DNA of 64,000 bases from Thermodesulfovibrio sp. 3462-1. Lineage in GTDB: Bacteria; Nitrospirota; Thermodesulfovibrionia; Thermodesulfovibrionales; Thermodesulfovibrionaceae. This document shows positions 13,065 to 55,217 of this stretch, in pieces (position 1 is the stretch's first letter; every line of letters starts with the position of its first letter). Under the pieces are notes generated by a model that was not told where the DNA came from, ran no database searches, and saw only the letters and a program-made list of their open reading frames with translations. The stretch covers positions 434,001 through 498,000 of the forward strand of contig NZ_CP144374.1 in assembly GCF_040451425.1 (NCBI RefSeq). The letters are read 5' to 3'. The translations under genes were made by a program, and so were the position numbers.

Positions 13065-14231
13065 GTGAAGGATTGGTCTGAGTTTCTTTTAAAACATATC
13101 TTCAGAGAAAAAATTCCTCCGAAACAGCAATTAAAAAATTTAATTCTAAAAGCTTCTGAGCTTTTTACTTTTTCAGATTTTAAAAGACCTATAGATTACA
13201 TGAAAAATCAGGATATTTTAAAAGGCTATCTTGCCTATTTTTTCCCTGTAAATTTGTCAAAAGTATATGGAATTCTTAAGGAGCTTTTCAGGCATCCTTC
13301 AATTTCTCATAAAAAAGATTTAAAAATAGTTGACATTGGTTGTGGTCCCTGTCCAGCAGTTCTGCCAGTTTTTAAGCTATTTGAGCAAGGAATAATTTCA
13401 GCAGGCTATATCAGATATGAAGGTGTTGAATTAGAAGATCAGGCTATGAATTTTGCAAAGGAAATGATTGAGAGATTTAAACCATATAATTTGTCAGTAA
13501 ATTATGAATTTTTAAAAGCTGATGCATCTGATGTAAAAACTTATGTTGAATTGAAAGAATTAAAACCTGACATAATGATTTTTTCAAATTCTATGGGAGA
13601 ACTATTCGATAAACAAGGAATAAGCCAGGAGGACTTTATAAAATTCATAAAGTATTTTATTTATCGTAATGAAAATTTTACTCTAATTATTATTGAACCA
13701 GCAACTAAAAGAAGTTCTATGAGGCTTCATAAACTCAGAGATAGCCTGATTGATGAGCTTAAACTTTATCCTTACAGCCCTTGTCTGAATAATCTTGCAT
13801 GTTCTGCTCTTAAAGCAAACAACTGGTGTTATGAAGAAAGGAGATGGATTCCTCCAGAATATCTTTCGTTTTTAAGCGCAGTGGGACTGCAGGTAAATTA
13901 TCTTAAATTTAGCTATGTAATTTTAAGAAAAGATGGGATAAACATAAAAGATACTTTTCCAGAACATGAGATGGTTATAAAAAACACTTCCCATCTTCTC
14001 AATGAAAAAGGAAAAAGCAGATTATGGGGATGCTGGGATGGAAGACTTGTTGATATTGAGAGATTAAAAAGAGACTATATAGAAGATGATTGCTGGCTGA
14101 AAATTAAAAAAGGCTGCTATTTTTCTTTTTCTGAGTTTATTGAAGTCTCAGAAAAAAAAGTCCGCATTCCTAAAAATTCTAAAATAGAAATTTTTTACTG
14201 TCCTGAAATTGTATCTTTTATTTCCTTGTAG
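13065..14231 (+). CDS. Class I SAM methyltransferase, Rsm22-like
   Basis: This is a 388-residue protein with a Rossmann methyltransferase fold. Motif I is VDIGCGPCP (89-97), and an acidic motif follows in the 120s (YEGVELEDQA). In the second half a cysteine-containing stretch (about residues 238-262: PCLNNLACSA, NNWCYEERRW) resembles the Cys cluster of Rsm22/METTL17-type proteins, which are associated with the small ribosomal subunit. The start is GTG, directly after the HU terminator, without a clear ribosome-binding site. Its 3' end overlaps the convergent HTH gene by 37 bases. The methyltransferase fold is clear; the Rsm22 link is a resemblance only, and the substrate is unknown. Confidence 0.7.
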   Translation: MKDWSEFLLKHIFREKIPPKQQLKNLILKASELFTFSDFKRPIDYMKNQDILKGYLAYFFPVNLSKVYGILKELFRHPSISHKKDLKIVDIGCGPCPAVLPVFKLFEQGIISAGYIRYEGVELEDQAMNFAKEMIERFKPYNLSVNYEFLKADASDVKTYVELKELKPDIMIFSNSMGELFDKQGISQEDFIKFIKYFIYRNENFTLIIIEPATKRSSMRLHKLRDSLIDELKLYPYSPCLNNLACSALKANNWCYEERRWIPPEYLSFLSAVGLQVNYLKFSYVILRKDGINIKDTFPEHEMVIKNTSHLLNEKGKSRLWGCWDGRLVDIERLKRDYIEDDCWLKIKKGCYFSFSEFIEVSEKKVRIPKNSKIEIFYCPEIVSFISL

Positions 14232-14590
14232 GCAAGACGGGCAATCGCTCCTGCAGTATGAACTTTAAGTTCCTTTTTATTTTCACCTGAAGCTTCTTCT
14301 AATTCTTTAATCTTCTTTAATGCTATCTCAGGGTCTGAGCGAAGTATCATTCTTACTGTATTTTTTGTAATTCCTACTATGCTCGCTATTTCTTCCTCGC
14401 TTTTTAAAAATTTTTCTTTAAGCACAACTGCATAAGAAGCCCTTGCTAAAGCAGGAAGCCATGTAAGACTTCTGTATTCAGCAAGTTTTCTAATTCCACC
14501 AAGAAGCTCAATTGTTTTGAAAAAAACTTTTTGTGTAATCTCCTCAACATCAGAAGATTCATCTTTTTGAGGCTTGACTTCAATAACCAT
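14195..14590 (-). CDS. Small helix-turn-helix protein of the KaiC-like operon
   Basis: This is a 131-residue protein with a predicted helix-turn-helix at about residues 66-85 (EEIASIVGITKNTVRMILR). It is preceded by a helical region (TIELLGGIRKLAEYRSLTW) and followed by a charged helix. It is probably a DNA-binding regulator or an adaptor of the KaiC-like ATPase encoded 3 bases upstream. The same-strand order GYD protein, KaiC-like ATPase, HTH protein with 1-3 base gaps indicates one operon. I do not recognise a named family with certainty. The 3' end overlaps the convergent methyltransferase gene. Confidence 0.72.
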   Translation of the reverse strand: MVIEVKPQKDESSDVEEITQKVFFKTIELLGGIRKLAEYRSLTWLPALARASYAVVLKEKFLKSEEEIASIVGITKNTVRMILRSDPEIALKKIKELEEASGENKKELKVHTAGAIARLAYKEIKDTISGQ

Positions 14591-14593
14591 TTT

Positions 14594-15487
14594 TTACCTC
14601 CCAATAGGTTCAAGGATTTTTACAAGTCCTGTTTCTGTTATTTCAAGAAAATGCGTTTTTGTATCATGACCTGAAAGTCTACAACCATCAATTCTGAAAA
14701 GTCTTACAATATCACCGATTTCTTTTTTATAAAGTTTCATTTTGTATGCAGAATCAACCAGTTCTTTAGCTAAAACCATTGTTCCATCAACAATGTGTCC
14801 TACAGCATATCCTCCTGCAGCCTCTGCAGTAAGTTCTTCGTGTCCGCTTCTTTTTTGTGATACAAGGAGTGCTGTTTGATACCATTTTTTTAAAAAATTG
14901 AAAATTTGCCTTACCACAACTCTTGCAAGCATTTCTTTATTTTCAAAAAGCCCTGTAACAGAATCAATCACTGTAAATTTAACTTTATAGTTCTGAATTA
15001 CATAGGCGAGAGTGGAAAGAAGTTCAGGAATATTTTCCCTTAAGCTTCCATAGGAAGCAGCATCAATCAAAATTATGTTGTCTTCAAATTTCTCAAAATT
15101 ATATCCCATTGCCTGCGCTCTGAGCCTAAGCCCAGCAACAAGAAAGTTTGCAGGAGCCTCAACAGTTATAAAGGCTACTTTATATCCCTTTCTTGCCTGT
15201 TCTACAGCAAATTGTTCAACCATTAATGATTTTCCTGTGTCTGAAACTCCTGTAATATTAAAAACAGAGTAGGCTGGAATTCCTCCAAGAGGCTGATTAA
15301 TAAGCTTACCATCTTTTAGTGTAACTATATAAAAAAGCTTGTCAAGCCCTTCAATTCCTGTTGAGACTCCTTCTATTTCTGGAGCTTTTTCAAGTGCCTG
15401 TTTAGCTGTAAATATAGCCTTCTTAACAGGCTCAGGATATTCTTTCTGTTCTTTTAATGTTTCTGTAATTTCAGTTTCCTTTTTCAT
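14594..15487 (-). CDS. Single-domain KaiC/RecA-superfamily ATPase
   Basis: This is a 297-residue RecA-fold ATPase of the KaiC-like type. Walker A is GVSDTGKS (80-87), followed by the beta-strand FITVEAP (107-112), where KaiC proteins carry catalytic acidic residues. Walker B is FTVIDSV (171-177). Only one ATPase domain is present, unlike cyanobacterial KaiC, which has two. A 40-residue charged N-terminal extension precedes the domain. Single-domain KaiC-like proteins are widespread in archaea and thermophilic bacteria and often sit with regulators; there is no reason to infer a clock. Neighbours are a GYD protein (1 base upstream) and an HTH protein (3 bases downstream). Confidence 0.85.
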   Translation of the reverse strand: MKKETEITETLKEQKEYPEPVKKAIFTAKQALEKAPEIEGVSTGIEGLDKLFYIVTLKDGKLINQPLGGIPAYSVFNITGVSDTGKSLMVEQFAVEQARKGYKVAFITVEAPANFLVAGLRLRAQAMGYNFEKFEDNIILIDAASYGSLRENIPELLSTLAYVIQNYKVKFTVIDSVTGLFENKEMLARVVVRQIFNFLKKWYQTALLVSQKRSGHEELTAEAAGGYAVGHIVDGTMVLAKELVDSAYKMKLYKKEIGDIVRLFRIDGCRLSGHDTKTHFLEITETGLVKILEPIGR

Positions 15488-15488
15488 T

Positions 15489-15776
15489 TTATGTCTTCAA
15501 ATTTTTAATCAACTCTTCCACTGTAATGGCAGGCATTGTCATGAGTTGAACTGTGCCTCTTGAACCAAGTTCAACAGACATTTTCATCACTGTGATATTA
15601 TCTGGAGCCTCAATAATGTTTACAAAATCATAGGGTCCAAGAACAGCATACTGCGCAATTAGCCTGACTCCCATTTTTTCAATCTCCTTGTTGACTTCAG
15701 TAATTCTTTCAGGCCTTTCCTTTAAAGTCTCTCTTCCTTCATCTGTAAGAGTGCTTAAAATAACATAGTAAGGCAT
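15489..15776 (-). CDS. GYD-domain protein
   Basis: This is a 95-residue protein of the GYD family, small alpha/beta barrel-like proteins related in fold to dimeric ferredoxin-like domains and of unknown function. The family's namesake motif appears as the segment VLGPYDFVNIIEAPD in mid-sequence, with an N-terminal strand YYVILSTLTDEG. It has a good ribosome-binding site (GGAGGTG on the minus strand) and is the first gene of the operon with the KaiC-like ATPase and the HTH protein. A ligand-sensing or dimer-forming role in that operon is a guess from size and position. Confidence 0.8.
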   Translation of the reverse strand: MPYYVILSTLTDEGRETLKERPERITEVNKEIEKMGVRLIAQYAVLGPYDFVNIIEAPDNITVMKMSVELGSRGTVQLMTMPAITVEELIKNLKT

Positions 15777-15800
15777 AATACACCTCCATTATTTTTTTAA

Positions 15801-15809
15801 ATTATACCA
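15801..15809 (-). promoter_or_regulatory. Extended -10 promoter of the GYD-KaiC-HTH operon
   Basis: On the minus strand TGG-TATAAT forms an extended -10 element (TG at 15809-15808, TATAAT 15806-15801), about 25 bases before the GYD start codon at 15776. No convincing -35 box is present; the upstream DNA is A/T-rich. Confidence 0.55.
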
Positions 15810-15828
15810 ATTTTTTTAGTAAATTTTT

Positions 15829-15834
15829 TATAAT
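15829..15834 (+). promoter_or_regulatory. -10 box immediately upstream of cutA (leaderless start)
   Basis: A perfect TATAAT ends 6 bases before the cutA ATG, and no ribosome-binding site is present. Transcription would begin at or next to the A of the start codon, giving a leaderless mRNA. No good -35 box is visible. Confidence 0.5.
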
Positions 15835-15840
15835 TAAATT

Positions 15841-16155
15841 ATGGATTACATGGTGATTTTCATAACAGCACCTAATGAAGAGGAAGCAGTAAAAATAGCA
15901 AAAACTCTTGTTGAAGAAAAACTTGCAGGTTGCGTAAATATCATAAAAAATATTCGTTCCATTTATTCCTGGCAGGACAAAATTGAGGATGAGCCAGAAG
16001 TTCTGATGATAGTTAAAACACGCTCTGAGTTGTTTGAAGAGCTTGAAAAAAGAGTAAAATCACTTCATTCCTATACAGTGCCCGAGATTATAGGATTAAA
16101 AATTAAAAAAGGCAGTGAAAGCTATTTAAACTGGCTTAGTGAGGTTACAAAATGA
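15841..16155 (+). CDS. cutA: Divalent-cation tolerance protein CutA
   Basis: CutA is a small trimeric cytoplasmic protein of the PII-like fold, linked in E. coli to copper tolerance; its biochemical role is still unclear. The 104-residue product has the full family pattern: the N-terminal strand VIFITAPNEEEA, EEKLAGCVNI, SIYSWQDKIEDEPEVLMIVKTR and the ending YTVPEIIGLKI. It starts next to a TATAAT box without a ribosome-binding site. The next gene overlaps its stop by 4 bases (ATGA), suggesting translational coupling. Confidence 0.96.
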   Translation: MDYMVIFITAPNEEEAVKIAKTLVEEKLAGCVNIIKNIRSIYSWQDKIEDEPEVLMIVKTRSELFEELEKRVKSLHSYTVPEIIGLKIKKGSESYLNWLSEVTK

Positions 16156-27450: not shown

Positions 27451-27570
<120 letters not shown>

Positions 27571-54608: not shown

Positions 54609-55217
54609 ATGGAATGGGAAAAGGTAGTAGACAAAATAAGAGATTTGATTTTAGGGGAGATAAAAGAGGAGTTAAGGGATTTTAAGGCAACAGTTTCAGG
54701 ACAGCTTCAGGGATTTGCAATTGCCCTTGACTCAATCAATACAAGAATGAATTCAATTGAATCAAGACAGGCAAGCATTGAGTCTGAACTTAAGGACATA
54801 AGACGGGCTATTGATGAAACGAACAAAAGGATTGATGATACTAATAAGCGAATTGATGAACTCAGGGTTGAGCTTAAAACAGAGATTATGATGAATACAC
54901 AGAGGATTGATGATACGAACAAAAGGATTGATGATACGAACAAAAGGATTGATGATACGAACAAAAGGATTGATGAAACGAACAAAAGGATTGACGATAC
55001 TAATAAGCGAATTGATGAACTCAGGGTTGAGCTTAAAACAGAGATTATGATGAATACACAGAGGATTGATGAAACCAACGCCAGACTTGATGAATTATTT
55101 TTAGAGGCATCAAAAATCAGAGCAGACCTTAATAAAGCTTTATCTCAGAAAGAAGCTATTGATGATATGAGATTGAGAATTCAAAGGCTGGAAGATAAAG
55201 TATTGACTGCTGCATAA
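54609..55217 (+). CDS. Coiled-coil protein with tandem heptad repeats
   Basis: This 202-residue, highly charged protein is predicted to be almost entirely coiled coil. The core consists of perfect or near-perfect heptads (IDDTNKR / IDETNKR) encoded by 21-bp DNA repeats, flanked by two copies of a longer segment (IDELRVELKTEIMMNTQ). No signal peptide or membrane helix is seen. The ATG at 54609 follows TTGGAGG. The family is not recognised; similar repeat proteins often act as structural or adaptor proteins, or occur as tail-fibre-like phage genes. The repeat number may vary between strains. It is followed by a broken gene and pilin genes on the same strand. Confidence 0.75.
   Translation: MEWEKVVDKIRDLILGEIKEELRDFKATVSGQLQGFAIALDSINTRMNSIESRQASIESELKDIRRAIDETNKRIDDTNKRIDELRVELKTEIMMNTQRIDDTNKRIDDTNKRIDDTNKRIDETNKRIDDTNKRIDELRVELKTEIMMNTQRIDETNARLDELFLEASKIRADLNKALSQKEAIDDMRLRIQRLEDKVLTAA
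54828..55073 (+). repeat. 21-bp tandem repeats flanked by an 86-bp duplication
   Basis: Five 21-bp units of the type AGGATTGATGATACGAACAA start at 54903, 54924, 54945, 54966 and 54987, the first three identical. An approximately 86-base block starting at 54828 recurs at 54987 (offset 159 bases) with about one mismatch. All lengths are multiples of three, so changes in copy number keep the frame. Confidence 0.9.

Follow-up and report, generated by a model that had tools for sequence, protein, structure and literature searches.

Two NCBIfam families, TIGR03878 (thermo_KaiC_2) and TIGR03879 (near_KaiC_dom, 'probable regulatory domain'), are the closest described counterparts of the two proteins considered here, a KaiC-type ATPase and a helix-turn-helix (HTH) protein encoded in a 64,000-nucleotide stretch of the Thermodesulfovibrio sp. 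3462-1 genome (RefSeq assembly GCF_040451425.1, contig NZ_CP144374.1, positions 434,001 to 498,000 of the forward strand; hereafter the window). Because both proteins exceed the curated cut-offs and the name near_KaiC_dom records the pairing, the KaiC–HTH partnership is already on record; the names and descriptions of the two models, in contrast, state no link to reverse gyrase (gene rgy), which is the association that we describe. The window locus also departs from the catalogued families in that its HTH protein lacks the common C-terminal domain and a GYD-domain gene leads the operon. A KaiC-type ATPase combined with a predicted DNA-binding regulator is likewise reported for the archaeal KaiC-like 'signal transduction hubs' (Makarova, Galperin & Koonin 2017, mBio, as cited in other papers). 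Reverse gyrase, the hallmark enzyme of adaptation to heat, has been described as the only protein that every hyperthermophile has and mesophiles lack (PMC6878951), and distribution studies report rgy from thermophiles of the kinds discussed below (Catchpole & Forterre 2019, PMC6878951; Nautilia genome, PMC2628731). The main text of the former mentions no KaiC or operon partner of rgy, and the legend of the rgy neighbourhood figure in the latter names the coo and fdr operons. The association of KaiC–HTH with reverse gyrase is apparently unreported: in literature searches whose coverage did not extend to the main KaiC survey (2017 mBio), a query pairing KaiC with reverse gyrase returned one paper, which draws no connection between them, and queries for TIGR03878, or for the GYD domain with KaiC, gave no match. 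A preliminary description of the locus knew of no function for the combination of GYD, KaiC-like and HTH proteins.

The intact Walker A motif and single RecA/KaiC domain that the preliminary description had read from the ATPase were both borne out. The protein matches PF06745 at 186.7 bits, and its AlphaFold model (mean predicted local distance difference test score, pLDDT, 89.7) matches PH0284 and the CI domain of KaiC at E values of 1e-16 to 1e-15. PH0284, a single-domain archaeal KaiC (TIGR03877, PDB 2dr3), is the best PDB fold match (E 8e-17, root-mean-square deviation ~3 Å) and shares the single RecA/KaiC domain, but it is 24% identical to the window KaiC and represents a separate NCBIfam family (58.7 bits versus a cut-off of 307). 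Circadian KaiC has the same RecA-type ATPase core with Walker A and B, and window residue E110 is, by inspection, in line with the CI catalytic glutamate; unlike the window protein, circadian KaiC consists of two domains, CI and CII (circ_KaiC, 33.6 bits versus a cut-off of 546), and no KaiA or KaiB was seen adjoining the window KaiC. Residues G80, D83, G85, K86, E110, D175 (Walker B) and Q211-K212-R213 are invariant in 53 KaiC sequences. The last three are followed by a conserved loop (residues ~211–230) that is modelled with low AlphaFold confidence, a region that may resemble the DNA-binding loop of RecA/RadA.

Pairing of the ATPase with its HTH partner extends well beyond this genus. KaiC and HTH genes were directly adjacent in 73 of 87 KaiC loci (same strand, at most 160 bases apart, median gap 4 bases), with adjacent pairs spread over at least 15 named bacterial and archaeal phyla and the order KaiC>HTH in 69 of the 73; HTH was found in 37 of 38 KaiC+ genomes, and the pairwise distance matrices of the two proteins are correlated (r = 0.87, 36 genomes). 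These results support the half of the preliminary description that joined the ATPase to a regulator. KaiC is present in 7 of 296 Nitrospirota genomes. In the KaiC tree, sequences from Aquificota, Campylobacterota, Thermodesulfobacteriota, Nitrospirota and others are intermingled, and one Nitrospirota KaiC (loci L008/L104) is nested among Archaeoglobi, a pattern that shows horizontal spread. The unit is KaiC–HTH, a horizontally spread two-gene module of thermophiles, rather than GYD–KaiC–HTH. At the L008/L104 locus (L104, 119–4004), Hsp20-type genes precede the pair (two of them in L008), and rhomboid-like and SDH Clp-fold protease-like genes follow it; in L056 an SDH protease gene lies between HTH and KaiC. 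An origin of the pair in anti-phage defence or mobile elements was rejected, with no significant PADLOC match and no relative in viral contigs.

Most relatives of the HTH protein have 195–242 amino acids and, by alignment, a conserved C-terminal domain of ~80 amino acids that the short window protein lacks. The missing domain was not found elsewhere at the locus, and a supposed remnant of it in L004 did not match the profile. An apparent link between the short form and loss of rgy (raw Fisher p = 0.002) received no support from independent pairs. The AlphaFold model of a long homologue is mostly helical (pLDDT 88.7), and generic HTH_3 and sigma-4 matches of the HTH protein are weak and below cut-off. 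A megaplasmid of Thermomicrobium roseum (L273, NC_011961.1, 5986–7265) also carries KaiC with a short HTH annotated as hypothetical (WP_012642838.1, WP_012643312.1).

Clustering of the genes around KaiC loci revealed a single recurrent third gene. It follows HTH directly, in the same orientation, in 16 loci from the Aquificota, Campylobacterota, Aenigmatarchaeota, Methanobacteriota and Thermoplasmatota, and all five of the downstream genes tested were reverse gyrase (TIGR01054, 888–1241 bits; cut-off 472). The order in these five phyla is always KaiC>HTH>rgy on one strand, and HTH and rgy mostly overlap by 1–11 bases or sit no more than 25 bases apart (52 in L034; in L039 the longest open reading frame start overstates the overlap). 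No other neighbour family recurred as widely in this clustering, and the state of rgy linkage changed at least eight times on the KaiC tree. On the plasmid of T. thermophilus HB8, rgy is present with no KaiC–HTH beside it. The rgy reading frame of an Archaeoglobaceae metagenome-assembled genome (MAG; L244, 5276–10084) encodes ~1600 amino acids, ~500 more than usual, and possibly contains an intein.

The two genes also share genomes. In Nitrospirota, rgy exceeded the cut-off in exactly 4 of 296 genomes (the window genome, G047, G052 and G154), all of them KaiC+ (Fisher P = 1.1e-7), and in Campylobacterota all 12 KaiC+ genomes were among the 15 rgy+ genomes of 298 (P = 5.6e-19), although both values ignore shared ancestry and, of the four Nitrospirota genomes with rgy, three belong to one genus. 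The reverse gyrase of the window genome is complete (1329 bits, positions 1–1169 of 1172, no stops). Eight of the 12 Campylobacterota genomes have the genes linked, with KaiC–rgy gaps of 676–770 bp, and 40 of 50 KaiC+ genomes elsewhere have rgy, as does G318/SKYB9, which carries both. In G154 an archaeal-type rgy accompanies a bacterial-type KaiC–HTH, while in the archaeon L103 a bacterial-like rgy sits in an archaeal-type KaiC–HTH operon, and these combinations of different ancestry speak for more than joint transfer. The foreign-ancestry reverse gyrase genes lie at L240 4997–8251 (archaeal type, in a Nitrospirota bacterium) and L103 3727–6911 (bacterial-like, in an archaeon). A candidate KaiC pseudogene in one Thermodesulfovibrio MAG (G346, locus L216) was unsupported.

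The GYD gene shows a different distribution. Comparing gene neighbourhoods, as the preliminary description had proposed, upheld adjacency for KaiC and HTH but not for GYD and KaiC, which are neighbours only in Thermodesulfovibrio: no GYD gene was found within the fetched flank of KaiC loci outside the genus, and among 50 KaiC+ genomes outside the phylum search seven have a GYD protein over the cut-off, adjacent to KaiC only in L077, itself a Thermodesulfovibrio. GYD and KaiC are thus rarely adjacent outside close relatives, and in G083, G104, G154 and G288 both are present on different contigs. Within the genus, the GYD gene is kept in 10 of 11 well-sequenced genomes, mostly without KaiC–HTH, and nearly half of the 296 Nitrospirota genomes have one GYD gene, mostly without a TIGR03878 KaiC. 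On the basis of these neighbourhoods and the independent persistence, GYD was rejected as a partner of KaiC–HTH. The idea that GYD stands in for the C-terminal domain missing from HTH was likewise rejected, as other short-HTH lineages have no adjacent GYD.

The layout given in the preliminary description, three minus-strand genes in the order GYD, KaiC, HTH with gaps of 1 and 3 bases behind an extended -10 promoter, was accurate in its coordinates, gaps and promoter (Table 1). The TATAAT hexamer, the upstream AATTATAAAAAATTT block and the ribosome-binding site GGAGGTG ahead of the GYD gene are conserved, apart from minor variation, across 11 genomes of the genus; since these include genomes without KaiC–HTH, the operon promoter is GYD's own. 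No further sigma-70-like or terminator-like sites rose above chance. GYD is probably not part of the KaiC–HTH unit but a resident gene whose promoter KaiC–HTH uses in Thermodesulfovibrio, illustrating that a tight three-gene operon can contain one passenger gene. It is divergent from cutA in the genus loci, with the cutA side rearranged in G052, and the pair of cutA and a cysteine-rich gene adjoins it in nearly all of them.

Traces of loss place the module at this site early in the genus. The GYD–KaiC–HTH arrangement is kept in four genus genomes. In a tree built from seven concatenated genes (PNPase, GYD, CutA and others), G166 is the sister of G318 (97% support) inside a KaiC+ rgy+ clade. 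G166 has no KaiC–HTH, and the 72 bases directly behind its GYD stop codon give an ungapped alignment with the final 72 bases of the HTH gene, identical at 54 of the 72 positions, with a score that none of 400 shuffles reached. A colinear remnant of the KaiC 5' start (0 of 400 shuffles) is found in the deep-branching G093. Neither genome has rgy, TopA being the only such enzyme. The stump and the remnant therefore indicate that KaiC–HTH already lay behind GYD at an early stage of the genus and that it has since been lost at least two times, with GYD retained; on these grounds a recent insertion of KaiC–HTH behind GYD was rejected. The G166 stump shares some of its bases with the 3' end of the Rsm22-like gene, and this part could have been kept for the sake of that gene; the similarity extends beyond the overlap. 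The HTH/Rsm22-like overlap of the window, which takes in the final 37 bases of HTH, is retained in some relatives and may help to preserve the stump in G166. The gene order GYD, Rsm22-like occurs in G083 and G166, and G083 has a distinct HTH–KaiC pair (65% KaiC identity) beside its ATP synthase genes.

Table 1 Features of the window around the GYD–KaiC–HTH operon and elsewhere
Feature	Position	Strand	Details
HTH partner, 131 amino acids	14195..14590	-	TIGR03879 near_KaiC_dom, 111.8 bits (cut-off 65.1); 3 bases from KaiC gene
Single-domain KaiC/RecA-type ATPase, 297 amino acids	14594..15487	-	TIGR03878 (thermo_KaiC_2), 453.3 bits (cut-off 232.2), profile positions 1-258 of 259
Walker A codons, GVSDTGKS	15227..15250	-	Intact; conserved in 53 relatives
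GYD-domain protein, 95 amino acids	15489..15776	-	PF08734, 110.8 bits (gathering score 31.4), profile positions 1-89 of 91
Extended -10 promoter element TGGTATAAT	15801..15809	-	TATAAT invariant, TGG ahead of it in most of 11 genus genomes
AT block AATTATAAAAAATTT	15821-15835		Upstream of extended -10 of the operon
Rsm22-like methyltransferase gene	13065..14231	+	PF09243; convergent to HTH gene; flanks KaiC-less site in relatives
HTH/Rsm22-like 3' overlap	14195-14231		
cutA	15841..16155	+	PF03091, 134 bits; divergent from GYD; synteny in nearly all genus loci
Cysteine-rich protein, 101 amino acids	16152-16457	+	No Pfam match; 4-base overlap with cutA
5S rRNA gene	27453-27569	+	Sole Rfam match in window
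Tandem array	54903-55018		21-bp unit, 5.5 copies

Taken with the observed pairing, linkage, co-occurrence and scars of loss, we consider it reasonably likely (a probability of roughly 0.6) that KaiC–HTH controls reverse gyrase, or assists it, under heat stress. The pair would often be co-transcribed with rgy; otherwise it is usually encoded in the same genome, and among Thermodesulfovibrio species the two tend to be missing together. In the mechanism that we propose, the KaiC-type ATPase would form a ring or filament, binding and hydrolysing ATP, while its HTH partner would dock on DNA through the helix-turn-helix; together they may control when and where reverse gyrase acts in heat stress, through rgy expression, loading of reverse gyrase on DNA, or both. 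In Thermodesulfovibrio, the pair would have come to lie behind the resident GYD gene and to be transcribed from its promoter. We infer the ring, the DNA binding, the direction of control and the heat dependence alike. The link to heat rests on two papers: rgy of Nautilia profundicola is induced more than 100-fold at 65 °C (PMC2628731), and in P. furiosus the KaiC gene PF1931 and the regulator gene PF1932, which may belong to another KaiC family, are both predicted as targets of Phr in the heat-shock response and strongly upregulated upon heat shock (PMC10746257).

Several observations weigh against a role in controlling or assisting reverse gyrase, besides the shared ancestry behind the Fisher values. 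In the window genome, rgy (C1:1118065-1121442) and KaiC (C1:448603-449376) lie ~670 kb apart and do not form one operon; no shared motif was found upstream of the KaiC operon and rgy. The fold of the HTH protein has no strong PDB match, the weak ones including several DNA-binding HTH domains (Z up to 5.3, DeoR). No rgy was found in three of the seven Nitrospirota KaiC+ genomes (G083, G104 and G288) or in 10 of the 50 elsewhere, many of the 50 being incomplete MAGs, so KaiC–HTH can be maintained, and may function, in the absence of reverse gyrase. Conversely, rgy occurs without a TIGR03878 KaiC in three Campylobacterota, in two partial MAGs of the genus (G346 and G349) and in the controls T. 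maritima, M. jannaschii and S. acidocaldarius; neither gene, therefore, strictly needs the other. An operator common to the KaiC operon and rgy was rejected; the single high score, in the window, is a chance match in coding sequence.

These exceptions bear on the alternatives in different ways. Genomes with only one of the two genes, like the near confinement of both to thermophiles and their horizontal spread, would suit independent genes of the thermophile niche whose co-occurrence reflects growth temperature and whose linkage arose from transferred genes landing together. We think this unlikely, given the invariable KaiC>HTH>rgy order on one strand with mostly overlapping or nearly overlapping ends in five phyla, the repeated changes of linkage state, the coexistence of rgy and KaiC–HTH of different ancestry and, in one thermophilic genus, presence and absence that mostly agree and have left scars of loss. 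Persistence in rgy-minus genomes can also be read as the mark of a general heat-stress signalling or regulatory module, with KaiC as hub and HTH as transcription factor, whose broad regulon would include rgy as one target; the Hsp20-type genes directly upstream in L008/L104, the SDH Clp-fold protease found next to the pair at several loci and the place of the P. furiosus KaiC and regulator in the Phr regulon (PMC10746257) point the same way. No neighbour besides rgy recurs widely, however, and the P. furiosus genes may not be TIGR03878/TIGR03879. We hold such a broader regulator to be quite possible, at somewhat less than even odds, and as it overlaps with control or assistance of reverse gyrase, our confidences do not add up to one.

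Narrower than control or assistance, and only a tentative suggestion with the odds against it, is that KaiC (TIGR03878) and HTH (TIGR03879) might serve reverse gyrase as dedicated accessory subunits, with an ATP-driven RecA/KaiC ring recruiting or gating the enzyme through HTH on chromosomal DNA in heat. The preliminary description had instead envisaged one signalling unit, with GYD as sensor, KaiC as switch and HTH as DNA-binding output. Its single promoter, its tight gaps, the arrangement kept in four genomes and the KaiC remnant behind GYD in a deep branch are all compatible with such a unit, yet none of the other lineages tested has GYD next to KaiC, and GYD persists without KaiC in most good genomes of the genus and lies on a different contig from it in G083, G104, G154 and G288. 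Because GYD adjoins KaiC only in Thermodesulfovibrio and persists without KaiC–HTH, GYD as sensor is unsupported, and we regard the three-part unit as highly improbable.

To our knowledge, little has been established about what regulates reverse gyrase in the cell or directs its action there. If KaiC and HTH were indeed accessory subunits, reverse gyrase would gain its first conserved protein partners that are encoded with it across Bacteria and Archaea. Control or assistance of reverse gyrase would also supply a functional hypothesis for two NCBIfam families whose names so far go no further than 'KaiC domain-containing protein' and 'probable regulatory domain'. Forming one operon with rgy in five phyla, co-occurring with it in both of the phyla tested in full and jointly absent with it inside one genus, the KaiC–HTH module gives a testable handle on reverse gyrase regulation.

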